Assembly (NCBI RefSeq): GCF_000003815.2
Contig: NC_049993.1
Span: 9,019,135 to 9,083,134, forward strand
Length of the DNA: 64,000 bases
Direction: 5' to 3'
From: Branchiostoma floridae
Taxonomy: Eukaryota; Chordata; Leptocardii; Amphioxiformes; Branchiostomatidae
Positions 314-56,055 of the stretch are shown here, piece after piece. Made by a program: the position numbers and the translations under genes. Numbering within the stretch: position 1 is the first letter of the stretch; each line of letters starts with the position of its first letter. The notes below the pieces were generated by a model, which did no database searches, was not told the DNA's origin, and saw only the letters and a list, made by a program, of their open reading frames with translations.

Positions 314-19945
<19,632 letters not shown>

Positions 19946-20664: not shown

Positions 20665-21866
20665 TCAAGTCTGGTCATCACTGCTGGATTCCCCCGAGCT
20701 CCCTGCCCCCTCCGCTATCAGCTCGTCCCGCAGCTCCGTCAAGATGGCGCCCAGCAGGTTCTGGCCCCGCCATGTTTTTCTGTTATGTGCCTTCATGTTC
20801 TTCTCAGACAGCCCGATCCCCCATTTCCTGTCCCTGGGGCTGGCCTCCACCAGGGTCGTACCTTGGGTAGCAAGCAGCGCCTTCCGAAGATGCGGGTTCT
20901 GTGTGAACTGCAAATTAAGAAATAAGTATGGCGTCCATTAGTTACCCATCATCTGAGAAATTGTATGTATCTACGTATTATCTATGTTTATCTATATCTA
21001 TTCATATCTATATCCATCCATAACTATCTATAGATAGATAGACAGATGATATGTAGAGACAATCAAATAAAGGAGCAGTATACATACATACAAAAAGATA
21101 TCGGGTTTGAATTGTTACTTTGTTTGACACGTCAGTTTTCATGCGATCTATTGTAAGTTGTCCACTGGCGTTTTATCTTTGACTGAATGTAACAAGTTTG
21201 TTTGTTTCACATGTACGAGATGGTGGGTCCCATTGGAAATCAACTTTCAAAAGTTGCAGAGCCACCCACCCGTTTTGAGATGAATAAATAAGTAAAATAA
21301 ATAAATGAATAAATAAATAAAGGAACAGTAGAATGGATGCTGTACCTTTGCTCTGTTACCCTCTTTCACGACTCTCTGACAGTGAGCGTTCCAGACGTCA
21401 TCGTTATAGTTGCGCACCTGGCGGCCAAGAGCTTTGATTTGGGGTGGAACATCACACTCCAGAATCTGCTGACCGATTGCATGGTCTTCAAACACCACTG
21501 ACAAACGCAAAGAAAATACGCACAGATGTAAAAGTATTGTAGTTTCAATTTCATCTCCCCTTCGATTGTAAATACTTTCTTTATCAGAAAGGCAATAATG
21601 GCGACGGAATGCTCCCAACTAGACATTCATGTAAACTTTAGAAAAAGACTGACGGATACATACAGTGTACCACTCTAAATGCCAATAAACCAAACTATGT
21701 ATATAAAATCTACATATGTAGGCGTTGTTCTGTCACGCACCTGCTTTCTGGTACATCATGTACTGTTCTGCACAATTGAACGTGACGTCATCGACCTTGA
21801 ACTCCGCTGGATGAAACTGGCTGAAGGGCGACTCCTTACGGAAGAAGAACGTGAACTGCTCCTCTT
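20665..21866 (-). CDS. NADAR domain 2 cassette (exons 5-7)
   Basis: Exons 21741-21866 (126 nt), 21346-21497 (152 nt) and 20665-20907 (243 nt including stop) encode the second domain, from EEEQFTFFFRKESPFSQF to the C-terminal tail SSGESSSDDQT. Residue identity with domain 1 is high by eye. EASPRDRKWGIGL is intact, so both domains could be active. The stop codon is at 20665-20667. No AATAAA is visible before the phosphatase 3' UTR, so the convergent transcripts may overlap. Confidence 0.87.
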
Positions 21867-24800
21867 CTAAAAGGTGAGATCAAATAAGATTGATTTCGTT
21901 GTAAAGAGGAATACGTCTAAAGATCGAGCACAATCAGCAATACTGCGTTTTGGTACAACATAAAAGGCTAACTGAATTTATTGATTTCAGTCATCATCAT
22001 GTTGGAATGACCATTCACTTAGAACACGTGACCAACTGGTCCATATATATACTTACCGCTATTTGACTCCTCTGAGCTCCCTGCCATCTCAGTAAGCAGT
22101 TCGTCCCTGAGCTCAGTAAGGATGGCTCCGAGCAGGTTCTGTCCTCGCCATGTGCTCCTATTGAAAGCCTTCGGGTTCTTCTCGTGCAAACCGATGCCCC
22201 ATTTAGTGTCATTGGGGCTGGCTTCCACCAGTGTGGTACCTTTTGTCGCCAGCAGCTTTTTCAGTAGAAGCGGGTTCTGAGTGAACTGGGAAAAATCGTA
22301 ATCGTAATCTTAGAATTGGTGTCACGAAAAAATCTTTAACATCCGTAAATCACCATGTGTATTATTCATACGGTACCAATTGTCCTGAAGTAAATGAATA
22401 TAAATGTACTAACAGTTTAAAGTATATTTGTCAAAAGAAACAACTAACATCAATTAATGATGTACCTTTGATCTGTTACCCTCCTTCACGACCCTCTGAC
22501 AGTGAGCGTTCCAGATGTCATCATCATAGTTGCGCACCTGGCGGCCAAGAGCCTTAATTTCAGGTGGGACATCAGTCTCTAAAATCTGCTGCCCGATTTC
22601 ATGGTCCTCAAATACCACTGGCAAACACAAAGCAATGTGGGAGCCTTGTACTTTTCATTATATTTCAGCCATACCAGATATGGTATGGTGAAATATATTG
22701 TATTCGTAATGTTTCTTTCTTTCTTTCTTTCTTTCTTTCTCCTGTCAAATCTTCAAATCGAATCATCTCCGTCGTTCCGGGACCGAATGACCTGAAATTT
22801 GGCACAAGAGTAGAGTGGGTCAATACCGAGGTGCTTTTTTCTCATTTTTTTCATATCTGCCTCTAAAATGATTTTATTGAAGTTTAAAGGTCACGTTTTG
22901 ACCACAACGGTATATTTTGACCCCCTGTACCATTGAATTACAATGGAATGACCTTAAATTTGGTGTAGATAGGCATTAGATAGTTGGTAAAATGATCCAA
23001 GTAAAATTTTTGGCATGAACCAATTTCAAATTATTAATTTCTGCACTTTTCTGAGGGGAAATTGGTTTTCTTTCGGCCTTCTCCCGTGAACTCCCGTGAC
23101 CCCAGAGCCCACAGGCGCCAGGTGCCAGCGGTCTGGGGAGAGCGAGAGTTAATTACTTTATGGACGCCAGCCAATCAGCGACGAGAAAGGCGAATGCTAG
23201 TTAATATTCATAAGCGGGGCCTTGCAATCCCGTTTATACACAAACAGATGCATATTACAGCCTTACAGTGGCCATATGTTACCCTGTGCCCGGTTTGAAA
23301 TTGTAGTTTGCGAGGATTTGGAGTTCAGACAGGGTCATTTGAGCGGTAGCGGACGGTACGCGTGCATTGAACGTCAGAATACAAGTCTGTGTCGATGAAT
23401 TTACCAACATTCCGCATGGCACTATCAATCATTTTTGGCAGATTTGACTTTGGGGGTTAGTTGAGACAATCGAGAAAATCTTACTTGGCAGAAAACGCGG
23501 GAAAATTGGACAGTTTGCGTTTAGTTTTGATACGTAAGTTTGACAGTGGCGAGAATGCATGTATTTTTTCCCAAACAAATGTAGGTACTTCTAACGTTAG
23601 TGTTGTTGTTGTTCTTTTTTGACGTAAACTTTGTACATTCAAATTGTAAGTAACTTTAAACTGCCAGAGTTTGAGCCCAATAAAACACTCTTAGTACCAG
23701 AGTATCACCACTGACCTCCGAAAAGAAACCCCCGAACAAGGTAGAAACTCCTATCCTCCTGGTCTCGCACGCTACGAGCAGGAAATTACAACACTCAGAC
23801 AAGATTACGTCCGATGGCTGATTGCATACAAAGTAAAACAATTTAACAGTGGTATGCAGGGCATATACTTAACAAAGAATTCGAAGGAAAATGAAATATA
23901 TAGATAAAGCCAAATCAAGTTAACTTGTTGGTCCTGGGATTTTTCAGAAAAGAAATGAAGCGACAGGGTGGTAAAATTCTTGTAAAAATTCGAGACGTGT
24001 CCGTTTATGTAATGGCTCATACAAAACAAGAAGATTGAAGTTTTTAGCTTGAAAAAAACAACAATAACAACACACTCCTACTACACAACACCTGCAGCTG
24101 CTTGACAATTATTAAAACGTATGCCCTACTTGATTAAAAAAAGTTCAATGCAATAATAAATGTACCCACATCACAAGGAGATTATGACGGTACTTAGACC
24201 TAGTTATCGAAGTGGAAATTGTTGAATGGCGTCATGTAATTTCATGATGAAAATCTTCTGAATGGAAGATGCGTTTTTTTTTCACTCTCGGAAAAATAGG
24301 AGCTGCCGAAATTCTAAAAGCCAATCAGTTATGCATAGGCGCTCCTGTGGAAGATTATATTCTTCCATATGGGCCCGGTTCATATTGGGCAAGCTCTGTT
24401 TTGACCTGGAATCAATTCACAATATTAGTTCTCTTTTGGGGATAACTTACAGTTTAAATATTGCACTTTTGCGCAGGGGTGACTTGGAACAGTCCAATGT
24501 TGCGTGGGAATGGGTATGGCTGAAATATGCTGTATTTGCACCCAAGCAAATGTCGGCCTTTCTAGTTGCATTCTCCTTCTCTAACACATGTTACAATTTC
24601 GCGATAAAACAATTGGAGACAAACAAAACAAACATTTCCAATCAAGAATTCCTGTTTAAGAATAGAACTAAAATGCATAGTTGAAACAGACTAGGTGTCA
24701 CGTGATATGTCAGTAATACAAATAAGCAAGGGCGTGTCGGTTTATATAGGATTAACGGCACCATGCCGTACTTCAGTTCATATAGATCAGTGTCCAAAGA

Positions 24801-31232: not shown

Positions 31233-34200
31233 ATGCTGAACTTCCTGAGTTGTCGGGAGAATGGCACACTCGACCCGCTGGCGCTGGTTCGCGCCGAGAC
31301 GACCCGCCGAACCTTCAGCCTGGAGCTGAGCAAAGAACAGGACGTGAAGAGGATCCACGCGAGCGGCGCCAACTCACTGGACCTGGACCCGGCCGAGTCC
31401 AGATAGTGAGTATGGCCTAGGAAGGACTGTAAAAGTCTTAGTCTGGTAGCGTCCAATACAATGTAGTTGAAACTACGCTTTAAAACTATTTACCTGCATG
31501 TATGCAGGTATGGTTTTACGGGCGTGGGAAAATTTGGAAGCTGGGGATTTAGGGCGCTGTATCTCGAGAACGGATGGTGCGAGCACGACGATTTTTGGTA
31601 CGTGGGTTGGGGGTGGTGGCCTGACACTCAGGTTTGATTTTGGGCCTCCTGGCGTTTGAACTTGACATTGCAGGTGGCATTTTTGGTGTTTTGGGGGCAC
31701 TTTTGGCGCTGTGTGTCCGGAACGATACGCGCGATTGCAACGATTTTTGGTGCATGGGTGGGGGGTTGTTGCCTGTTGCCTAGGATTGACTTTGGGCCTT
31801 GCCGCGTTTGAACTTGACCCGGCAGGTCGAATTTTGTGTCCGGGAGGCAAAACTACCGAAGTCACGGGTTCCTCTCTCAGCACTCGGTGTCTAGTGCGGA
31901 AGGGGCCTTCCGCACTAGAAGTCTAGTGCCGACGTTACGTCCGCACTAGGTGTCCAGTGGTGAGTCGACTTCAGCACTGAAAACCCCCGATTCACCACTA
32001 GAAACCGAGTGCTGAGACTACCATCCGCACTAGAAAACGAGTGACGACAAATATTCCGCACTAGAAAACGAGTGACGACAAATATTCCGCACTTTGAAAC
32101 CGTGAGTGCTGACAGCCTGCCTCCGTTACGTTATTTACAGTTCCGGGCAGTTAAAGGTACACATATACAAATGTAATACATAAAAGAAGTGTAACAAAAC
32201 GTTCACCTTGAGCCTGAGAAAGCTGCGTATGGGAGGAAATATCCGTGTCGGGTTTTCAAAGAACAGTACATATCAATTATCTTTCTTATAAGTAGAACTG
32301 TCTAAACTGTCTGTAGCCGCCACGAATCAACAAATGATGCATGCGAACGATTGATTGAAAGTAGTCTGCAACTCAAACACGACAAAGGGAGCTGTAATTT
32401 ATTGGCATTTCATCTTCGTGAAATTTAGAAAAAGGGAACGAAGCTGACACACTGTTGACATGAGGTCATCATATACATAACACTATATACATGTAGGATG
32501 TAGCGTATGATACACACATGCTGTTTCGAGTTCCGACAGAGACAAGACTAGGGCAAAATTGATTTTAAATACTGAGTAAGTGACCGTCCGAAGGTGAGTA
32601 GGCGCTGCTGCATGTCAACTATGTGTTTGAGTAACGATTTGGACGCGAGCACTGGAAACCCAGTGCTAACGGTCTTAAAATGATAGTAGCACTCGGCTTC
32701 TAGTGCCGAAGTGGTCTTAGCACTCGGCCTCTAGTGCCGAAAAGTCACCGAGCACTAGAAATCCCAGTGCGGAACCCGTGACTTAGGTAGATCGGCACTC
32801 GGTTATCCAGTGCTCAAAGACCTCCGCACTGGGTAACCAGTGCTGAACGACCTTTGAACCACCCTTCCGCACTAGAAACCGAGTGCTGAGCGGAGATCAG
32901 CACTAGAAACCGAGTGCTGGACGGAGTTCGGCACTGGAAAACGAGTGCCGAGACAAGGTGTAGCTCTGGAATTCCAGTGCTGACGGGTCTTCAGCACTCG
33001 AACAAAGCCGTTCCGCACAGGAAATCCTGTGCGGAAGTTTCTTCCGTACTGGGCCCCGAGTGCCGACGCCAGTTTCTCCACGAATTCCGCACTGGGCGCC
33101 CAGTGCGGAACCCGTGACTTCGGTATACTTGCGTCCGGGAGGGGTATTTCCGGAGTTATGTCTTCTGAACGGTTGGTGCTGGCGCGATGATATTTGGCAC
33201 ATGTGTCGGCGATGGGTGAATAATTCTCAATTTTGATTTTGGCGCCCTTGGTGCTTGAACTTGACATTTTAGGTTACCTTTTGTGCGGGCACGGGGCGTG
33301 TGCTGTATCTCCGGAACGCAAGGTGCCATTGTGTTGCTATTTGGTACGTGAGTTGTTGGTGGTGTCCTGGTAGTGAGGTTTGATTTTGGGCCTCCTAGTG
33401 CTTGAACTTGATACTGTATAGGTTGACCCTGTTTTGGTGTGGTTGGGGCATCCCCCCAATATCTGCTTGGTTGCTGACGGTTGGGTTGGGTAGAACCATC
33501 ATCTGTTTTGGTTGATTGAGAGGTCTTTAAGTTTACACCTAGAACCATCATCTGGCCTGGGCCACCTTCAATGTATCAGGTTACTTTGTATCAACAGTGT
33601 CTGACCTGCCAGATGATATACTTAGTCTAGTATCTGTTGCTGTATTTGTTAGGTACAGTTTGAGTTTGCTTCTTAGTCCGAGTTTGTGGTGTTTTGAGAG
33701 CTGTGTAGTACTGGGTTTAATGTTCTGGTACAAGTTCCTTTACCCTGTTTGGCAATCAGCAGAAGATACAACTTTCTAAAGTGGAGGAGAACTGTATAGA
33801 GCTTGAGTGTAAGACAAAGGTATGTGTAAGATTTTTCCTGTTTCTTGTTGTTTCTTTGGGGATGCGATTTCCGTATTGTATGCAGGTAATTTGTAGTTTG
33901 GGGCTAGTCATATTTGCTTGATTTTTGGGCCTGCTTAATCTATAGTACAGGCAAGGTTAAGTGGTAGAGGCTTTGTTTTGTTTTAAATTTGGTATCGTTT
34001 GTTGCATTTTGTCACTGCAAAAATATGATGAAATTGTTTCCTCCTCTAAGCAGCTGCTCATTGATTTGGGGGGATGTTTGCTGGGTGTTCACTCTGACTA
34101 CGACAGCTTTCTGAACTTTTTAAAGTTGCCAGCAGCTTGCCATTTATGAATGGGATTGACAAGGACATTTTGAGTAGTAAATTCTGCTGTAAAATTTGGC

Positions 34201-37200
34201 TTAGGTACTTCAGGAGATTTAGGTTTTAGTTGGACGGATTGAACAAAATATCATACCACCCTAATGCTGCTGGATGGGGCCTACCACTATTCATATTGTC
34301 TATGGAACTACTGTAAAAATATAATTTTTCAAATTATGCAAATAACCTTCCAGTGTCAAGTGATATAACACTCCAGAAATAAATCTTTAATGAATATCAT
34401 TGGTACAATAAGGAGATTTAGCAGCTGCATTAGGTCAGTACATTGAAATAGGAAGATATCAGTACTGAATATATCATATGTGACAGAACAACTACATGGG
34501 CCATCTGACTCTGAGACCAAAAAAGGTAGGAAAAGTCGTCTCAATAACTTTAAGGTACTGTGGTTGGTTACATGCTTAAGAAATCCAAAATAATTAATGT
34601 TCATCCATGCCCAAACTTACACATTCTGAAAATGGAATTTCAGACTTTTGCATGGTGCACAACCAACACGGTAAAAATACGCAACCAGGGACGAAAAGGA
34701 AAAAAAATACACAATAGGTCTACAGACACCTAATACATTTCATGCAGGCCTGAGGTCTACGAACTCTTGTTCATAATGTGTGTGATCTCGAACTCCAAGC
34801 AGATGTAACGTTTTCGTCCAGCTGGGTTTCTTGTCAACCTCACCACACGCTTGGGGGGCTGTCAGAGAAGCCACCTGCAGTTCAAAAAGCTTCATACCTT
34901 TCACCTTAACATCTGCTTGGTGGTTTTATATTTTCGTTGATAACTAGGGGAAAAAATTAAAATCGCAGAAGTTTGACCAAGTGACATCCAACATGATGAT
35001 CAGACCTTTTTTCTGAGAAATCGGGTTAGAATCCAAAAGTTTCATCTTGTGTGTTATTTATAAATAGAGCTTGCGTGCAAACTAAGAAATACATGTTACT
35101 AAAGTGATACAGTCTGATATTTCTGTATAAAAATATTAAGATGAATAGGTTGAAACTAAAGTTTGTACGTTTTGTTCCAGTCTGTTATCCGGAGGTGCAG
35201 ATGGAGTGATTGCTGTTTATGACACCCACAACCTGTCAGGCACACCCAGCAGTACTGCTGAGGCTGTCTGTACAGTAGGAAGGTATGTCCCTCTTTATAA
35301 CCATTACAAAACATACACATTTACAGTTCCAAGTACACATGTGTAGTGACAGATATTTGGGGTGATATGTCAAAGCTGAAGACCTCTTACTTGTTAACTA
35401 ACAGTTTGCATAATAATGCATAGGCATGTCCTGTTTATGTCTCAGATGCCTTCACAACAGGGCTCTAGCCAGCTCGACATTTTTTTTCGTCAGCCAATTC
35501 CCATTGTCGCGAAAACACTATTCCAGGAGTAAGAGAGACTGAACTGAGACTTTGAAATCGGGTTTTAATGAGATTATCGTATGCGAAAGGGCACCGACAC
35601 ACATTGTCAACAATCATAACAATAGCAAAACAAACAGTGTGTGGCTTTTACGGCCGTGGTCGGCGTCCCCAAGCAGCCTGTAGCTTCCACCAAGGAGCTT
35701 TTATCAGATTTTGTCTGTCAAAGTTGACGGATTGGTTTTAAAATTTTTCCGTCACACGCAGCAAATTTCCGTCAATTGACGGAAAAACGGACACTGGCTA
35801 GAGCCCTGCTTCACCATGACAAATATAATACCAATACCAGTAATTCTTGTCACTGCACATGCACACTTTGAATTGTGAGCTTGCTTGCTGCTAAAAATAC
35901 CTTAAGGTATAACACCTGTCCAGTTTTGTACAGCAAGTACAAGCTCTGTAACTTGTAAGCCCAGACTGATGTGATAGGTCTTATCCACCCACACTGGGGT
36001 GGACCTATTTTGTGACACACCACCTTTCATTGTGAACAGTTTTATCAGAAAAATACATTGTATAGCCTAATCTCCAAGCAGACCAAATCATCTCACAGGG
36101 ATTGCTGCCATTTGCTGGTCAAGACTATGTCCTACTACCATGCCACAGAAGGGCATACTCTTGGCTGGCAATTTTGCCACTGGAAGATCTGCTTGTCAAG
36201 GAACATTATGATTTTCCCTGCTTTGAGATAAGCCACCACTCTCTCCCTCCCCCCAGGTCCCACCGCCATGTGCACAAGTACAGTGTGGAGACAGTCCGCT
36301 GGTACCCACACGACACCGGGCTGTTTACATCCAGCTCCATGGACAAGACACTGAAGGTGTGGGACACCAATGCCCTGCTGCCTGCCGAGGTCTTCCAGTT
36401 CGAGGGCACGGTGTACTCACACGCCATGTCTCCTGTAGCCAAGAAACACTGCCTCATCGCAGGTGGGTTAAAGTTACATATTGCCTTAGTAACCTCTGCT
36501 TCGTCTGGTTAGTTTGAACAAGTTGAGCTTCTCTAGAGCATGATGTTTCAGCCTAATTCATGTAACACGTACATCATGTAAGTGGCTTTTGTGTCATGTT
36601 ATGTGGCGACAAAGGAATTGACCATTATACTTACATTTTCATACATTATTGGCACATTGATAATACCTCAAAGATGTATCCTTAAAAGTTAGATGCCTAG
36701 TTGGTGGTGTGTTTTTCTCTAATCATTGAAGCAATTTTTTTCATCCCCAGTTGCTACCATGACCTCCATTGTGACCCTATGTGATCTGAAGTCTGGGTCA
36801 TCCACACACATACTGAAGGGTAGGTCCTTTTTTTACATGAATGGAATTGCTATGTGATATGCAGGTATAGATGATACCATTATGATAACTTTGCACATTG
36901 TAGCTATATGATGATAAGTACCCGCATCCCTTGCTTTCCTTCCTAGACCCTGTCGTGGTCTAGGTGCAGGTAGACATCAGAAGTCAGATTTATTTGTAAA
37001 ACATCGCAGCCTATAGTATAGGCTACACAACTTCAATTTTACATTAACTAACCTATACATACATGTGGTATTTGAGCCCTGACCGTGCATAGGTTTTGTT
37101 GAGAGTGTCAGTATTATTAGTATCATATCTTTTCTGTATCCAGGTCACCGAGCAGCGGTGAAGTGTGCCCGCTGGTCTCCCAGGAACCCGTACCTGCTGG

Positions 37201-40200
37201 CCACGGGCAGCCAGGACAACAAGGTACTGCTGTGGGACGTGCGGAGTGCCAAGAGCAGCCTCATGTCACTGGACCAGCACAATGGGGAGCTGGCAACCAG
37301 CACTGCGGCAGGTCAGTAGGTCAGGGGTCACCAGGTCAGGGGTCACGAGGTCAGGTGTTAGTGCTGTTAGCCTCATGTCACTGGACCAGCACAATGGGGA
37401 GCTGGCAACCAGCACTGCGGCAGGTCAGTAGGTGAGGGGTGACCAGGTCAGGGGTCACGAGGTCAGGTGTTAGTGCTGTTAGCCTCATGTCACTGGGCCA
37501 GCACAATGGGGAGCTGGCAACCAGCACCGCAGCAGGTCACGAGGTCAGGGGTCACGAGGTCAGGTGTTAGTGCTGTTAGCCTCATGTCACTGGACCAGCA
37601 CAATGGGGAGCTGGCAACCAGCACCGCAGCAGGTCAGTAAGTCAGGGGTCACGAGGTCAGGGGTCACAAGGTCAGTTGTTAGTACTGTTAGCCTCATGTC
37701 ACTGGACCAGCACAATGGGGAGCTGGCAACCAGCACTGCCGCAGGTCAGTAGATCAGGGGTCACGAGGTCATCTGTTAGTAGTGTTAGTACAATAGCAGC
37801 CTCATGTAACTCGCAATGCATCCTGTCTTATCTTGGACTGTTCTCCTACCTCTAGGTAGGGTTCTTTAAAGAATACCATGCCAGGATATGCAAGACTTTC
37901 GTGTGTGTGGAAGGGTCTTAGATCTTCTCTCTGGCTTCTCTATGCATGCATGTTACTATTTATGTGTTGATCTATGCTGATTCACAACACATGTTACAAT
38001 ACTGTTAATAGTAGTGTCAAAATGTACTCTATCAATGAAGACATCCTTTCCTCATTTCTACAGTGAACACTGCCCATAACGGCCATGTGAACGGTTTGTG
38101 CTTCACACCTGAGGGGCTCCACCTCCTGAGCTTTGGCACTGACCACCGGCTCAGACTGTGGGACACGGCTACTGGCAGGAACACACTGGTCAGTGGCATG
38201 GGCACCCCTTCATGTAGAGCTTTGCTTGAGCTAAACTAGTATAGTAGTGCATTTCTCTACTATCTAAGCATTTTCTGTGACGAAGTCTATTTTTATGAGA
38301 CACTCCTGTATTTTTCTTGATCTATGTTTCCCAAAGGTAAAAGTTTGAAACATAATGTTTTTGCTGGTGTGTTCTTCTTTTTTTTCTTCTGTCATAAACC
38401 AATCAGAACTTAGTATAGCTAGTGACATTAGCATATTAGCTGTTACAGCAAATATGAACAATTACAGGATTGCAATAGCAAAACCTGTATCGGTAATTAC
38501 AGGTTTGTGATAGGAAAACCTGTGAAAGGCAAATTACTTGGAGGGAAACATCCTGCATTTTCTCGAAAATGTCACCTTTCCAGCTTTCTTTTAGATTCTA
38601 GTATTAGTAAGTGTAAAGTAGAAATGTCAAGTCACATTGGTCATGAGCCTGGGTATGTTTCCTAGTCACCACATTGAATGATATATTTTGTAGTTTTTAT
38701 GAAAAGTGGATTGAATCAGACACCAACAGATAGAATCCCGTTCAAACATTATTTTTGTCCATACCCAATACAAGGGTTTTACATGTTCAGACTTTTAAAC
38801 ATATACATAGATACAGGTACACACTTTTCCTCTATAGGTAACTACGGGAAATCTGCAATGATAGTAAGAAGTCTGTTCAGTTCACGTTCTCGCGTGCNNN
38901 NNNNNNNNNNNNNNNNNNNNNNNNNNNNNNNNNNNNNNNNNNNNNNNNNNNNNNNNNNNNNNNNNNNNNNNNNNNNNNNNNNNNNNNNNNNNNNNNNATG
39001 TTCGACTTTTAACATATCTAGATACAGGTCACACTTTTCCTCTATAGGTGAACTACGGGAAAATCTGCAATGATAGTAAGAAGTCTGTTCAGTTCACGGT
39101 CTCGCGTGGCTCGTCCCCTGACGTGGTGTTCGTTCCGGACGACAGTTCCATCGCGATGTTTGACGTGTTCGGCGGGACCAGTCTACACCGGTTGGTGGGG
39201 CACTACAACTACGTGCAATGCTGTGTCTTCAACCCTGATACTCAGGTACAAAGCTACTTAAACCGTTAAACCATCCCCTTGCTGCCTTACTTAATAACCA
39301 CTAGAGAAATGTTTTTTTAGGGATCAGCCAATACCTACAGGTCACTGAGCTCTGTTGAATATGATAGATCTAAAGAATTTGTGTTGCATCTTGCCTTGTA
39401 ATCAATGAATATGGCCAAACATCCGTAACTTAATATGTTTGCTTTAGTTTTTCTTAAATTTTCTGACAACTACGTGCAATGTTGTGTCTTCAACCCTGAT
39501 ACTCAGGTACCACTGATTCCTTCAAAGGAAAACTCTGGGAATGTCTAGGTGACCCTTAAGCATACACTCACCCTGACCTCTTGCTGTAGATATTGTTGTT
39601 GATGACTATTGTAGATACTATGTCGGCTATCTTGTACCATGTATGTATAAAAGTTCTTTTATTGGTGTACTTAGAATATTGTTATTGATAAGTATCCTGT
39701 CCTTGTCCAATTTTGTTTTGTGTGGCAAGGGTTTTAGAACTGTAATCAATTTTAGTTCTTTTCAAATTTCCTGACAATTTTCTTTATTTTGAGCCCAGCA
39801 AACTACTTTGTTATGTTACATGTACTGTTTGTTCTACTGCAGGAGCTGTACAGCGGGGGGAGTGACAGTAATATCCTGGTGTGGGTGTCTGATCTGTGAC
39901 ATGTTTATTGTACTGTACCTGTATTTTCTACTGCAGGAGCTGTACAGCGGGGGGAGTGACAGTAATATCCTGGTGTGGGTGCCTGATCTGTAACATGTTT
40001 ATTGTACTGTACCTGTATTTTCTACTGCAGGAGCTGTACAGCGGGGGGAGTGACAGTAATATCCTGGTGTGGGTGCCAGATCTGTAACATGTTTATTGTA
40101 CTGTACCTGTATTTTCTACTGCAGGAGCTGTACAGCGGGGGGAGTGACAGTAACTTACTGGTGTGGGTGCCTGATCTGGGTCATGTTTATTGTACTGTAC

Positions 40201-41547
40201 CTGTATTTTCTACTGCAGGAGCTGTACAGCGGGGGGAGTGACAGTAACTTACTGGTGTGGGTGCCTGATCTGGGTCATGTTTATTGTACTGTACCTGTAT
40301 TTTCTACTGCAGGAGCTGTACAGTGGGGGGAGTGACAGTAATATCCTGGTGTGGGTGCCTGATCTGTAACATGTTTATTGTACTGTACCTGTATTTTCTA
40401 CTGCAGGAGCTGTACAGTGGGGGGAGTGACAGTAACTTACTGGTGTGGGTGCCTGATCTGGGTCATGTTTATTGTACTGTACCTGTATTTTCTACTGCAG
40501 GAGCTGTACAGCGGGGGGAGTGACAGTAACTTACTGGTGTGGGTGCCTGATCTGGGTCATGTTTATTGTACTGTACCTGTATTTTCTACTGCAGGAGCTG
40601 TACAGTGGGGGGAGTGACAGTAATATCCTGGTGTGGGTGTCTGATCTGTAACATGTTTATTGTACTGTACCTGTATTTTCTACTGCAGGAGCTGTACAGT
40701 GGGGGGAGTGACAGTAACTTACTGGTGTGGGTGCCTGATCTGGGTCATGTTTATTGTACTGTACCTGTATTTTCTACTGCAGGAGCTGTACAGTGGGGGG
40801 AGTGACAGTAACTTACTGGTGTGGGTGCCTGATCTGGGTCATGTTTATTGTACTGTACCTGTATTTTCTACTGCAGGAGCTGTACAGTGGGGGGAGTGAC
40901 AGTAACATCCTGGTGTGGGTGCCAGATCTGGGTCATGTTTATTGTACTGTACCTGTATTTTCTACTGCAGGAGCTGTACAGTGGGGGGAGTGACAGTAAC
41001 TTACTGGTGTGGGTGCCTGATCTGGGTCATGTTTATTGTACTGTACCTGTATTTTCTACTGCAGGAGCTGTACAGTGGGGGGAGTGACAGTAACATCCTG
41101 GTGTGGGTGCCAGATCTGGGCAGGGGGGAGGATTATGAAGAGTCCAAAAAACAGGTTAAGATTCTACTTTCAAAGCCCTTTCAAAAAGTCTGCATTCAAT
41201 TTTTGAAAGCTCACTAAGTTCTACATCTTCACTCATGATGTATGTGAATTCAGATATGATCCTCCTTGATTGTATGTCTGTTATGTTTAGGATATTATTC
41301 TTCACCGGAGATGTATAGTGCCTCAAATGTTTTGGTGTAATGTATTTAAGAGACACAATAAGAAATGCCATGTCACAGTGGATTTTTAAATCTCAGCAAA
41401 AAGTATATACATGTATTCGTGTGTGACTTCCATGTGAGATGTTAAACAAACTTTTTTCATTCTCTTGTTTTGTAGAAAGCAGAGCCAAGCCAGAGAAGCC
41501 AGAATCTCCAGGCATATCAGGACACATGGAGCAGTGATGAGGATTGA
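31233..41547 (+). CDS. ERCC8: DNA excision repair protein ERCC8 / CSA (WD40 substrate receptor of CRL4)
   Basis: CSA is the WD40 receptor of a DDB1-CUL4 ubiquitin ligase acting in transcription-coupled repair. Nine exons, 31233-31405, 35181-35282, 36257-36462, 36751-36819, 37144-37311, 38064-38188, 39048-39245, 41065-41154 and 41476-41547, close in phase to 400 aa (human 396). Matches to human are clear: [114 protein letters not shown] and the terminal DTWSSDED. The start is the Met aligned with human Met1. Oddities: exon 5 and exon 8 each sit at one end of a tandem array copying the exon edge and its splice site. Confidence 0.95.
31856..33123. mobile_element. 1.27-kb TA-flanked element packed with short hairpins
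   Basis: The left end CCGAAGTCACGGGTTCC and right end GGAACCCGTGACTTCGG are perfect inverted repeats of 17 bp, flanked by TA (31854-31855 and 33124-33125). Inside are two clusters of about 22-nt near-palindromes of the form GCACTnG-AAA-CnAGTGC (about 31878-32117 and 32650-33118), separated by about 530 bp of AT-rich sequence. A third, internal copy of the terminal sequence is at about 32778-32797. No coding region is visible. A non-autonomous Tc1/mariner-like element is the simplest reading. Confidence 0.75.
32650..33118. repeat. Cluster of about 14 near-palindromic 22-nt hairpin units
   Basis: Successive units such as AGCACTGGAAACCCAGTGCT, CCGCACTAGAAACCGAGTGC, CCGCACAGGAAATCCTGTGC and CCGCACTGGGCGCCCAGTGC occur with spacers of 5-30 nt. 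Each can form a stem of 7-9 bp with a small loop. Stems vary by compensating changes (GCACT/AGTGC versus GCACA/TGTGC). A smaller cluster of 6-7 units is at 31878-32117. Confidence 0.8.
33432..35180 (+). other. Remainder of ERCC8 intron 1, no gene seen
   Basis: T-rich sequence with no ORF having splice or domain support. A diverged CCTGAGGTCTACGAACTCTTG near 34.75 kb resembles the right end of a repeat family seen at 46.5 and 62.1 kb. Confidence 0.5.
35458..35808. mobile_element. 351-bp hAT-type MITE in ERCC8 intron 2
   Basis: Termini CAGGGCTCTAGCCAG and CTGGCTAGAGCCCTG are perfect 15-bp inverted repeats. Flanks CTTCACAA and CTTCACCA form an 8-bp target duplication with one mismatch, as for hAT. 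The inner sequence contains GTCAATTGACGG palindromes. Confidence 0.87.
37259..37800 (+). repeat. 112-bp tandem repeat across the ERCC8 exon 5 donor
   Basis: The unit holds the last 53 nt of exon 5 (from CCTCATGTCACTGG), the G|GTCAGT donor and about 59 bp of intron rich in GGTCAGGGGTCACGAG. Copies start at 37259 (the real exon edge), 37371, 37483, 37580 and 37692, with a truncated sixth start at 37799. The third unit has lost about 15 bp. Most copies keep the donor and a TGTTAG acceptor-like end upstream, so a 53-nt frameshifting cassette could be included by mis-splicing. Confidence 0.92.
38757..38897 (+). repeat. Partial copy of ERCC8 exon 7 beside the gap
   Basis: From about 38838 the sequence repeats the intron end and first 60 nt of exon 7 that reappear at 39027-39107, with single-base losses (GTAACTACGGGAAATC versus GTGAACTACGGGAAAATC). 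The copy runs straight into 100 N. Indel-type differences next to a gap suggest an unmerged contig overlap rather than a real duplicate exon. Confidence 0.75.
38898..38997. other. Assembly gap (100 N)
   Basis: Exactly 100 N between two near-identical copies of the start of ERCC8 exon 7. The gap may be artificial. Confidence 0.98.
39466..39510 (+). repeat. Duplicate of the ERCC8 exon 7 end with its donor
   Basis: ACAACTACGTGCAATGTTGT and the next 24 bases repeat the last about 40 nt of exon 7 and its CAG|GTAC donor (39207-39250) with one mismatch, about 260 bp downstream. There is no gap here, so this copy is likely real. Confidence 0.88.
39803..41118 (+). repeat. 94-bp minisatellite, 14 copies, across the ERCC8 exon 8 acceptor
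   Basis: Each unit contains about 40 bp of intron (GTACTGTACCTGTATTTTC, then TACTGCAG acceptor) and 54 nt of exon 8 coding [10 protein letters not shown](I/L)LVWV(P/S)DL. Acceptors precede 39843 and every 94 bp to 41065. Only the last copy continues into the rest of exon 8 and a GTTAAG donor. Earlier copies run into TGA or TAA, or into a shifted frame, because 94 is not a multiple of three. Variants (ATCC versus TTAC, TGTAAC versus TGGGTC) mark at least two unit types. Confidence 0.96.
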
Positions 41548-51002: not shown

Positions 51003-54000
51003 TTATATCATATTTCTAAGAATACATTCTGATTTGAAAATTTTCAGAATGATTTCTGCATCTTGACATAGTGAATTCGGGGATGACACTGTAGACTTAT
51101 ATTTTACAATGGATAGTTTCGCAACTAGCAGCAGTTCATTGATGTGCCGAAACTTGTTTAACATATGAGGGTTGTATCCAAAAATAATGTCATGTACAGT
51201 GAGAGATATGGAATAACTAAACAAACTTTCCACATAATCCCATAATGGTTTAACAATTTTACAGTCAAAGAAAAAATGCTCTATATATTCTATAATATCG
51301 CAAAAAATACACTTATTATTTTCTACAATTCTCATCTTATGCAACAATATTTTGGTCGGATAAATATTATGCAAGATCTTCCATTGCAAACTAATAAGTT
51401 TGGGTTCTTTAGTGGTCAAGAAGGGAGATTTCGATAGTACATGCCAAGAAATGGAACGAAAATCGTACATAGGAAATCGTTTCTCCCAGAAATTCTGTGA
51501 GACTGGGACTGCTTGGTATTGCATGATACAGAAATTCTTAAAGAAGCTAGAGTCTAGTAAGCGGATGTCTTTACCACAAAGTTTGATACTAGGAGATTCT
51601 TCGTTGTCTAATCGAGAAACACCTTTCCATTGTTTGGGAATTGAATTGATTAAAGCATGATACTGTAGTAATACATGTGCATCATTACCAACAATAGCTT
51701 TTACATCATCAAAAGATATAAAGTTACCCTGATCATCCACAATATCATTTACATAAAGAATATGTCGTCTAATCCATTTCTTAAAATAAAGCATGTTGCC
51801 CTTGTAACTTATACAAGCATTGTTCCATAACAATTGCCAATTTACTTGATTTACTTCAATATCATTGACATTCTGTACAGGTTTCATTTCATACCAAGTA
51901 AGTATGAGTTTACGGTAATAGAGAGGTAAGGGCAACAGTGAATCTTTAGATGACACATGGACTGCCGAGCAGTTATGTCTCAATATACAAAGATCAGGTC
52001 CTAACTTCTTAAAATAATACAGTTGTATCTTCTTCCATGTAGGAGTAGGAGTTTCACTACCGGATAACAATTTTTTTTATCGATCGTAATAAACAACATT
52101 TGTGCATTATTCTTATATCTATCATTTTCAATCCTCCCTGTGAATAGTCTTGAACCATCACATTACGCTTTACTCTATCTCTTTTCCAGATAAATCTGTA
52201 AAACATCAAATTAACATCCTTTAAGAAGCTATCCGGTGGTATAAGTGCACCAAAACTGTAAGACAGTTGTGAAGCTACAAGGTTTTTGAGCACTGTTATT
52301 TTTCCTATAAGACTAAGGTTGCGTGAAGCCCAAGATAATAAAATGTTTTTCATCTTACAGTATTTTTTGCTCCAATTTACTTCTACTTCAGAGGCACAAC
52401 ATGCAGATGAGAAAACAATCCCTAAACATTTTGCTGTGGTGCACCATTTTAGCCCACTAGCTTGTTCAGAGCAGTGTCTCCAAGGGCCTAGCCACATGGC
52501 TACTGTTTTTTCTTTATTCAAAACTAGACCAGAAAAAACGGAAAAATGTCTAATAATATCTAAACTTCTATCAATAGAAATTTTGTCACCAAGTATCAGT
52601 TCAGTATCATCTGCATATTGAAAAATTCGAGATTCAACATCGGAGTCGCTAAGCCCAGATAATGTAATACCTTTGATTTCGGAAGACTGGCGGACTTTAA
52701 GAGCAAAGAGCTCTGTGGCTAGAATAAACAGAAGAGAAGACAGGGGACATCCTTGACGTACACCTCTTCCCAGGTCAAACCATTCAGAGATATGACCACA
52801 ATGATTGATACAACTACGGGCATTATTAGTGTATACCTTTACCCACTGAACAAAATCTGAACCGAAATTGAACTTTTCAAGAACTTTTATAATGAGGTCT
52901 TTGGAAATAGTATCAAAAGCTTTGCTGTAATCTAAGAAGAGAATGGCACCTGGAACATTAGAATCTCTAGTAAAGCAAATTATGTCATCTATGGCTCGTA
53001 TGTTATTCAAAATACTACGTCCCTTGATATATCCAACTTGGTCTGGTCCAACAATGTGAGAAATAATGTTCTGTAATCTATTTGCTAATATCTTTGCACC
53101 TATTTTGTAATCCGTATTTGTGATTGAGATAGGTCGCCAGTTAGACAGCTGGTCTCTACTTAAATCTTGGTGTTCACCCCCTTTAAAGAGTAAGGATATA
53201 ACCCCTTTACGTTGAGTGGAAGAAAGCTGGTTCTTCGTGTAGCCCTCATTTAGTGAGTTCAAAACCATAGATCCTATTCTGCTCCAAAAGACTTTATAAA
53301 AGTCAGTAGTAAGGCCATCTAGGCCGGGACTGCAATTTGTCATGTTACGTAGAGCAGATGTACATTCCGTCATAGTAAACAACCCTTCACAAGATTTACT
53401 TTGCATGTCAGACAACGTCGGAAAATTTACGTCTGTAATAAAGTCATCAAAGCTTTCTATGTCGAAATCGTCGTTTTTACTGTATAGTTTTCTATAGTAA
53501 TCGACTTGTTGTTCCAATAATTTATTTTGATCTGTTATTATGTGACCGTCAGGTGTTCTGAGGCTTGTAATAACATTGTGTATGGCACGTGACTTCTCAA
53601 GTCGAAGAAAGTAGGCTGTGTTTTTTTCTCCTTCCTCAATCCATTTAACTTTTGAGCGGATTTGTGCACCACGCGCCTCGTGAAGGGCTAATGCTTCAAA
53701 CTCAGCCTTTGTGTTGTGCACCTGTTGCTGTAATGTTAAATTCTTTGGATCGGAAGCTAATTGTTTTTCCAGCCGTTCTAATTTTTCATCAATTATGTTG
53801 TGTTTGGATCGTTTTTCAAGAGCCTTTTGTTTCCCGTAACTAATTGAGAAAGATTTTATCTTACTCTTACAGATGTCCCATATTAACTGTTTATCTTCGA
53901 TCACAGAGTCACTAAGGCCTTCTTGGATGTTTCCTATGATTTCATTAACACGATCAACAAACACCTTATCTTTTAGAAATGAATTATTGAATTTCCAATA

Positions 54001-54738
54001 TGAAGGTCCTTTGTCAAACTGTGTTACAGACATATCCAATACAACAGCTCTATGATCACTGCAGGGGAAAGAGATGATTTCACATGCAGTAGTTTTATCA
54101 AACAAAAAGTCATTAATCAGGAGATAATCTAGTCTCCTGGCTGTAAAAGGGTTTCTCTTAGACCATGTGTAATCCTTGTCTTCACTATGGAAGACTCTCC
54201 AGATGTCAAGTAGTTCAAGGTTGTCAGTCAAATTATTAAAACATTTAACCTCTGCTTTATCATGCTCTTTCCCTGCTACATTGTCGAGATCACGATTGAG
54301 TACTGTATTGAAATCACCAGCTAACATAAAATATTCACCGTCACAACAATGTTCTTGCAGTTGAGTTAGAACCTGTTTGTAGAACAGTTTCTTACTCACT
54401 ACATTGTTAGGAGCATATACATTGAAACAAACAAATTTCTCACCATGGTGTATGAATTTTATACCAATGACCCTCTCAGATATATCTATAAATTCCACAT
54501 TTTTAATGTTGGAACCTTTAGATATCAAAATAACTTGTCCTTTGCTATGACAGGTACCAGGGTGTGCGTAAAGCATCCCTCCCCATTCTGTCTTCCATGT
54601 CTCTATATCAGCACTGCTGATGTAAGTTTCTTGCATAAAAGCAATGTCTATCTTCTTATCTTTAAGGTATTGAAAAACAGTTCGCCGTACCGTTCGTTTC
54701 CTTAAGCCTCGCGTGTTGATGGTGAGTAGTCGAACCAT
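51003..54738 (-). pseudogene. LINE ORF2: endonuclease and reverse transcriptase, one frameshift
   Basis: The first 893 codons (52057-54738) carry an APE-type endonuclease (LLTINTRGLRKRTV, FMQETYIS, LAGDFNTVLNRDLD, SDHRAVVLDM) and a reverse transcriptase (WRPISITNTDYKIGAKILAN, LFLDYSKAFDTIS, GRGVRQGCPLSS, and the catalytic FQYADDTELIL). The frame stops at 52057 just after an A8 run, and the same protein continues in another frame (51003-52070). That part has a zinc-binding C-terminus, WKILHNIYPTKI then CIFCDIIEYIEHFFFDC. Total about 1240 codons. A one-base slip or a sequencing error would explain the break. The order and motifs fit the L1/Tx1 group. Confidence 0.9.
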
Positions 54739-54766
54739 GGGTGTTGATGGAAGATAGACCTAAGTC

Positions 54767-55876
54767 CTACCCATTGTCTTTGTTTCTCCTCTGATCGTTG
54801 TGGCGACCGTCGTCTTTGTACAGTTTGTCCGGCTTCGACTTGTCAGGCGGAGTCAGAACATTCTTTCTCTTCCTAGTTGACCTTGATGTCCCAGGTTGAC
54901 GCCGTTGACCTTGATCTCTAGTGTCCTCAGTGCTGGTGGGCGCTGGGCGCGTTGAACGTGTAAGTCTTCTCTGATTGGTTCCACCAGAGAGACCGGCTTG
55001 TTCCTGATGTGGGGGGTTTGCAATTGACTCTGTCTCACACCGAGTGTTCTCTGCGCCATCACTGTCCCCTGTAACTAGACTCTCGGCTGTCTCATCGGGA
55101 TCACCAGAAGCCCAGTCTGTCCAGTCTTGATCTTCTCCACTATTTTTGTTATTAACGACTGCTTTTGAAGCACTAGTCGATCGAGAGTTGGACGCCTCCC
55201 GGGCAGCTCTGAGTCCTTGCTGAACTTTCTGCTCAACATCTCTTCTTTCTCTTGATTGATTGCTTCTTTCGGCCCTGCACCACTTTTTTGTGTGACCTTT
55301 TTTTCCGCAGTTGTGGCAAGTGATGCGATGAGGGCATTCGTGGAATGCATGGTCCTCTGACTTGCAAGATTTGCAGTTGATATGCTGGCCATCGTGGAAA
55401 ACTGTCACTTCAATGTCAATCAGAGAACCTGTATCCGTAGGGTCAGGTATGCTGTAGGTACCGTACCGCTGGAATGGGTTGGTGATCTTCGACGCATAAC
55501 AGAATCTGTGGCCCGAGTACAGGTGCTGAAAGGGGGAGTCCGCATTCCTGTTCTTCTTCTGATGTCTCAGGACTTCTGTCGTCCTTTCAGCTCTCGAGTC
55601 CACCCATTGTGCAACCTCATCATCCGATACACTATGCGGAATACCATGGATAGAAATCCTGATTTCGGTTTTCCTTAAACCCGTTTTCTGGAAATCCAGG
55701 ATTCCGTAGGATTTTGAACCGACAACCACTCGACCTACGCTGATTGCTTTCGCCTTAGCATCCAGGCATGTAAAATTAATTACCCAGGTGCGCTTCTGGC
55801 TCAGGTACTGTGCGCCTAGGATTTCTCCTGTTACTGTTATACCGTGTTTGTTTGCGAACGCTCTTAAAAAATTCAT
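54767..55876 (-). CDS. LINE ORF1: nucleic-acid-binding protein with zinc knuckles
   Basis: A 369-codon frame. The N-terminal half resembles an RNA-binding fold (GILDFQKTGLRKTEIRISIH). The middle has a CCHC-type knuckle, CHNCGKKGHTKKWC, preceded by a second Cys/His cluster, CKSCKSEDHAFHEC. The C-terminal part is a low-complexity Ser/Thr/Arg/Asp-rich tail. It precedes ORF2 by 28 bp. If the 15-bp flanking match is a true target duplication, the first codons belong to the insertion site and ORF1 is slightly truncated. Confidence 0.85.
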   Translation of the reverse strand: MNFLRAFANKHGITVTGEILGAQYLSQKRTWVINFTCLDAKAKAISVGRVVVGSKSYGILDFQKTGLRKTEIRISIHGIPHSVSDDEVAQWVDSRAERTTEVLRHQKKNRNADSPFQHLYSGHRFCYASKITNPFQRYGTYSIPDPTDTGSLIDIEVTVFHDGQHINCKSCKSEDHAFHECPHRITCHNCGKKGHTKKWCRAERSNQSRERRDVEQKVQQGLRAAREASNSRSTSASKAVVNNKNSGEDQDWTDWASGDPDETAESLVTGDSDGAENTRCETESIANPPHQEQAGLSGGTNQRRLTRSTRPAPTSTEDTRDQGQRRQPGTSRSTRKRKNVLTPPDKSKPDKLYKDDGRHNDQRRNKDNG

Positions 55877-56055
55877 TGCCAGACGGCGATTACACAGTAA
55901 AGTATGCCTCTGGCATCAAACAAGTTGTCGCGGATCTCACCAACCGTTAGAACAGTAGAGAAAGAGGATTAGATCGGATCATGCTTCTGGGTCTTTTTCC
56001 GTGTGTTCACTTGATGTCCTTGTTGAAATCATCCCGTTTTGATGTTTACAACTAA

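Follow-up and report, generated by a model that had tools for sequence, protein, structure and literature searches.

A 94-bp minisatellite of 14 copies in the lancelet gene ERCC8 repeats the acceptor of intron 7 together with the start of exon 8. It adds a large and unusually long new member to a class of repeats known from lancelets: the amphioxus "mirage", a tandem repeat of an exon–intron boundary (PMC3087553). We put at about 0.86 the probability that the ERCC8 array is such a mirage, formed by local duplication and then amplification, in which copy 14 is selected through exon definition and mis-spliced transcripts are lost to NMD. An ERCC8 mirage was not found in our literature searches, and we know of no RT-PCR for the ERCC8 mirages.

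The array lies in a window of 64,000 nucleotides of Branchiostoma floridae DNA, the whole stretch that was analysed, in which the gene was modelled as follows.

31233..41547, plus strand: ERCC8 (CSA) gene model, nine exons, 400 aa, stop codon at 41545-41547
31233-31405, 35181-35282, 36257-36462, 36751-36819, 37144-37311, plus strand: ERCC8 exons 1-5, joining in frame
38064-38188, 39048-39245, 41065-41154, 41476-41547, plus strand: ERCC8 exons 6-9, joining in frame

GT/AG borders are present on 8/8 introns, and the joined exons form a single open frame of 400 aa. The model is 97% identical over 100% of its length to the predicted ERCC8 of Branchiostoma lanceolatum (P0001), and its residues 1-399 align to residues 1-393 of human CSA (ERCC-8, PDB chains; E 1.4e-154); judged by these alignments, it is a full-length WD40 protein, colinear with human CSA. 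The 18 codons borne by the array are, by the CSA structure, part of the last WD40 blade. The hydrolase adjoining ERCC8 matches a B. floridae x B. japonicum record at 98% identity, with 92% of the query covered. By similarity, then, both ERCC8 and the neighbouring hydrolase point to Branchiostoma, and the host is a cephalochordate, as the definition of a mirage demands. Within the genus, the globin loci described below, whose repeat sizes are those published for B. floridae, make that species the likely one. Upstream of ERCC8, a human NDUFAF2 query gave three colinear minus-strand matches (E 2.6e-5 to 0.002), which suggests that NDUFAF2 and ERCC8 form a head-to-head pair in the window; this is also the human arrangement.

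Several other features were observed in the window. ERCC8 intron 1 holds, at 31900-33120, many short GCACTAGAAACCGAGTGC-type repeats with 31-bp periods, several of them self-complementary by eye. The plus strand at 2352-19657 encodes Ig, fibronectin III, and tyrosine-phosphatase domains, possibly of one receptor-type PTP gene. At 20687-22288, a pair of stretches spaced about 1.4 kb shares 76% identity over 224 bp, the second encoding a minus-strand NADAR domain. Finally, 51003-55915 holds an apparent non-LTR retrotransposon in minus orientation, whose 900-aa open frame includes endonuclease and reverse transcriptase domains.

The anatomy of the array, like its coding consequences and its likeness to published loci, is a matter of direct observation. 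Its parts are listed below.

39803..41118, plus strand: acceptor mirage, 94 bp x 14, each copy with 40 nt of the intron 7 acceptor and 54 nt of exon 8
39843..41024, plus strand: 13 decoy copies of the acceptor and exon 8 start, with exon parts starting from 39843 to 40971
41065..41154, plus strand: functional exon 8, made of array copy 14 (41065-41118) and the exon remainder, with donor CAG/GTTAAG at 41155

TRF reports a single 94-bp array at 39821-41120 (13.8 copies, 95% matches, 0% indels). Anchoring on CTACTGCAG/GAGCTGTACAG recovers 14 acceptors, with exon starts at 39843, 39937, and onward to 41065, and all spacings (13/13) equal 94 bp. The initial annotation, which had proposed a 14-copy 94-bp minisatellite at these positions, is borne out by both approaches, and the nine-exon model agrees with its placement of the array in ERCC8, on the intron 7 acceptor and the first 18 codons of exon 8. 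The motif CTGCAG/GAG is kept in 14/14 acceptors. The exon part of each copy encodes 18 residues, the last eight of which read (I/L)LVWV(P/S)DL; among the 13 decoys, Ile is changed to Leu in seven and Pro to Ser in two. The 14 copies comprise ten distinct 94-mers. Copy 1 differs from copy 2 at 15/94 positions overall and at 14/40 within the intron part, a divergence that places the beginning of the well-repeated part of the array near 39821. From -35 to +10 of the acceptor, by contrast, no difference exists among copies 2-14, so that local splice-site sequence cannot single out copy 14. When a 188-bp array probe was run against the animal's own genome (513 Mb, 431 contigs), all 13 matches listed fell within the array, in a search that scores best candidates only and so does not strictly exclude distant copies elsewhere.

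The choice of acceptor has sharp coding consequences. Begun at copy 14, exon 8 gives the open 400-aa product, and this is the sole such start among the 14 acceptors; the proposal that only the final copy connects to the remaining protein therefore stands. When reading runs on to the donor of exon 8, the stop comes after 18 codons (365 aa) for copies 1, 2, 3, 6, and 9, and after 38 codons (385 aa) for copies 4, 5, 7, 8, 10, 11, 12, and 13. In 13/13 decoys the stop precedes the last exon junction by 67 to 1255 nt, the distance for copy 13 being 67 nt. The NMD rule applies to stops located more than 50-55 nt before the last junction; NMD would thus be expected for all 13 decoys, with a narrow margin for copy 13. 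The annotation had further claimed that earlier acceptors produce an early stop or a shifted frame, and that the gene must either use the most distal acceptor or tolerate truncated CSA. The former holds in 13 of 13 cases given read-through to the exon 8 donor, and is weakened by an internal CTG/GTGTGG, present after 36 nt of the exon part (+37) in 14/14 copies, which could yield an in-frame micro-exon of 12 codons. As to the latter, truncation follows in 13/13 cases, but with stops so placed before the last junction, NMD is a likelier fate than tolerance. The predicted B. lanceolatum protein P0001 has the same exon 7-8 junction as our model, with a single exon 8. A second predicted isoform from that species, P0002, by eye omits the start of exon 7, shifts frame, and reads a single exon 8. 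One protein search for the peptide tail expected from decoy use found no such tail and gave only the normal ERCC8 cluster (1 of 2 candidates), among clusters built at 90% identity that could hide it.

How might such an array arise and still be spliced? A local tandem duplication would have captured the 3' terminus of intron 7 along with the opening 54 nt of exon 8, and the duplicated unit would then have been amplified to 14 copies, partly homogenised in three-unit blocks and most recently in two-unit blocks. Among copies 2-14, units resemble one another most at a spacing of three units (mean distance 2.2, permutation P 0.00145); for lags of 1 and 2 the permutation P was 0.41 and 0.67. Toward the 3' end of the array, copies 11 and 13 are identical, as are copies 12 and 14. 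This lag-3 peak and these identities point to amplification by three-unit blocks, and by two-unit blocks at the 3' end. Since copy 14 is identical to copy 12, the functional exon start shares in the turnover of the array. Growth on the intron side would leave the coding exon intact, with copy 14 still continuous with the exon body and its donor. Purifying selection on the decoy acceptor core was considered and rejected: 0/37 core columns vary against 6/54 exon columns (P 0.078), and decoys carry amino-acid changes.

Copy 14 is marked out only by the exon body and by the donor 90 nt downstream, which makes exon definition the simplest mechanism. U1 on that donor would aid U2AF/U2 at the nearest upstream acceptor, whereas earlier acceptors would define exons 184 to 1312 nt long; mis-spliced transcripts would likely be cleared by NMD. 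On what can be read from the DNA, this species most likely uses copy 14, and exon definition, NMD, and this history of amplification are likely. Donor strength speaks against strong exon definition: the donors of exons 8 and 7 score 3.6 and 3.9, the weakest of eight, and the internal CTG/GTGTGG scores 6.1, above the exon 8 donor and beside two accepted donors at 6.4 and 6.8, all by a donor matrix.

The acceptor array is accompanied by further duplications inside ERCC8, which comprise two donor mirages and a duplicate at an assembly gap.

37257..37788, plus strand: second mirage, exon 5 3' terminus and donor in five copies, GT at 37312, 37424, 37536, 37633, 37745
39048..39245, plus strand: functional exon 7 of the gene model
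39205..39249, plus strand: third mirage, source copy, exon 7 3' terminus and donor (45 bp), sharing 97.8% identity with 39466-39510
39466..39510, plus strand: third mirage, second copy, in intron 7, GT at 39507, 261 bp downstream of the source
38898..38997, no strand: 100-N assembly gap, with a duplicate of the exon 7 start on both flanks, 38783-38896 and 38998-39108

At exon 5, the donor copies follow in steps of 112, 112, 97, and 112 bp, GT is kept in 5/5, and the productive donor is the one at 37312; use of any of the four decoys leads to a stop after 241 residues. The second exon 7 donor (39507), if used, leads to a stop after 354 residues. ERCC8 thus holds boundary-spanning repeats of 14, 5, and 2 copies with AG/GT signals retained. 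The productive copy always touches the exon body, being the final one of the acceptor array and the first of the donor arrays. That only the copy adjoining the exon body works, wherever frames were checked, fits exon definition.

The main competitor to a true mirage is an assembly artefact, in which few or no real repeats were inflated or misjoined in a stretch that is hard to assemble. The gap lies only 0.8 kb upstream of the array, and the duplicate that flanks it (38783-39108; 116 bp, 92% identity) spans the start of exon 7, with single bases missing inside exon 7, by eye, from the pre-gap copy; this duplicate probably represents unmerged contig ends or haplotypes. There is also a precedent in the draft version of the BflGb6 haplotype 1 mirage, which "appears to be aberrantly assembled" (PMC3087553). 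Against this, the array has ten distinct units of 14, a three-unit pattern, and no N, and the same assembly holds loci sized and laid out as the published globin mirages, one of which, as the published account has it, was rebuilt by its authors from trace data. Distinct units, absence of N, and globin-like loci together make the existence of the array likely, although the exact number of 14 is not secured; we regard an artefact as unlikely.

Comparison with published mirages favors the same reading. In BflGb6, the acceptor and the start of exon 2 are repeated in units of 150-160 bp, with 6 and 3 units in two haplotypes, and in BflGb9 the end of exon 2, donor included, is duplicated at 157 bp (PMC3087553). 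Adh3 mirages have units of 10-72 bp with length variation and somatic instability, and the Adh3 data together with globin RT-PCR suggest undisturbed splicing (PMC3087553). In the passages that characterize these arrays, many copies, not all, retain splice signals, and concerted evolution acts inside while the edges lie outside homogenisation (PMC3087553). Lancelet PGBD5 carries 60- and 108-bp splice-site repeats, and a troponin C mirage is described as well (PMC3902484).

As far as these accounts go, the exon 8 array resembles BflGb6 in repeating the acceptor with the 5' part of the exon, and the exon 5 and exon 7 mirages resemble BflGb9 in repeating the donor with the 3' part. ERCC8 differs from the globin genes in its 14 x 94 bp and in having three mirages, of acceptor and donor types, in one gene; the copy number of BflGb6 is 6 or 3 as published, with 4 acceptors at the matching locus here, against 14 in ERCC8. 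Adh3 is alike in having boundary-spanning repeats that reportedly leave splicing intact, in units of 10-72 bp against 94 bp in ERCC8. PGBD5 also has repeats across 5' and 3' splice sites, yet these are imperfect and of few copies (3 x 108 bp). The edges agree only in part: published mirages exclude them from homogenisation, whereas in ERCC8 the left edge is diverged (15/94) and the right edge is not, copy 14 being equal to copy 12. By analogy with these loci, polymorphism of array length in ERCC8 is plausible. The annotation had also called the array a natural test of splice-site choice; that test has in part already been run in the Adh3 and globin genes (PMC3087553).

Similar layouts occur elsewhere in the same genome. 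A globin search gave nine matches. One locus (L017) holds four copies of the acceptor at spacings of 154, 158, and 158 bp, of which the last alone is open to the exon end, and another (L013) has its donor end duplicated, 157 bp apart; by unit size and layout, these fit BflGb6 and BflGb9, respectively. At L013:1642-1960 (G000:C7), an N run follows soon after the donor-end duplicate, and the gap hides its full extent. The Adh3 mirage study is reportedly that of Canestro et al. 2002; a search aimed at Adh3 gave 23 ADH_N matches, of which four were examined, in two zinc-dehydrogenase gene regions. Two further mirages were found outside the globins.

L062:1692-2246 (G000:C2), minus strand: acceptor mirage in a sorbitol-dehydrogenase-like gene, 143 bp x 3.8 (TRF), four acceptors by eye
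L054:8550-8720 (G000:C11): two-copy donor mirage in a CCT gene, 134 bp apart, with the GTACGCAAG donor in both copies

In the former gene, whose name is presumed from a motif, the last copy is continuous with the exon. Like layouts at the two globin-type loci, the sorbitol-dehydrogenase-like gene, and the CCT gene rule out a unique device specific to ERCC8.

We surveyed CCT exons for the frequency of such events. A partial duplicate overlapping the boundary was found at 2/54 of the exon matches examined (60 found); of the six omitted, five were seen at loci without such a duplicate and the sixth is C7:13865031. The two are the donor pair on C11 (L054) listed above and one on C16 (L044/L055), where the copy is decayed and, by eye, has lost its GT. 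A pair close to a CCT exon in L028 fell below the later criterion and was not counted, and in CCT regions L051, L052, L054, and L056, which also hold arrays, the count covers the exons picked up by the family model. Within the CCT gene region at L056:5089-6029 (G000:C19), we also observed an array with a 67-bp step, for which TRF gives 14 copies on the overlapping L023. Random non-exon intervals of equal length from the same CCT regions gave a mean of 3.7/54 (sd 1.8, range 0-10). CCT exon edges are therefore duplicated no more than intron stretches, and mirages appear to be side effects of ordinary local duplication, which in the CCT sample is frequent and shows no sign of targeting to exon edges.

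The idea that splice sites attract tandem repeats was accordingly not supported by the CCT genes (2/54 against a mean of 3.7/54). ERCC8 itself leans the other way: in a placement test over seven of its repeat loci, listed by hand with the gap duplicate omitted, the probability that three or more fall on a splice site was P 0.025. With the same detector, 3/9 ERCC8 exons carry duplicates against 2/54 for CCT (Fisher P 0.018), ERCC8 having been chosen for its duplicates.

Could the decoys be functional? That they are measurably used, the array acting either as a brake on CSA that depends on copy number or as a ladder of 12-codon in-frame micro-exons, we consider very unlikely. If true, array length would alter the last propeller blade or CSA, and hence transcription-coupled repair, between animals. 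The brake alone, in which poison acceptors route an adjustable fraction of pre-mRNA into NMD and copy number sets the CSA dosage, is remotely plausible at best: decoys 2-13 do share the acceptor core of copy 14, and 13/13 decoys give predicted NMD products, but recent amplification accounts for the sameness of the core (0/37 against 6/54 variable columns, P 0.078), and the globin mirage RT-PCR suggests normal splicing (PMC3087553). The ladder, in which a copy's acceptor and the internal GT after 36 nt would add 12 codons, in the common or the Leu form, for each copy used, is barely credible, since the functional exon holds the same GT and predicted B. lanceolatum proteins read past it, and since the 58 nt to the next acceptor would make a very short intron and copies would need skipping, even with CTG/GTGTGG in 14/14 copies scoring close to accepted donors. 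Among the proteins encountered in searches with other aims, none had the insertion.

As a mirage, ERCC8 is an especially clean case, with 13 acceptors (copies 2-14) identical from -35 to +10 in competition. The same gene also holds the converse, in that exon 5 has five near-identical donors, and exon definition predicts opposite choices at the two sites: the most distal acceptor and the most proximal donor. To judge by the small CCT survey, mirages may require no mechanism beyond frequent local tandem duplication.
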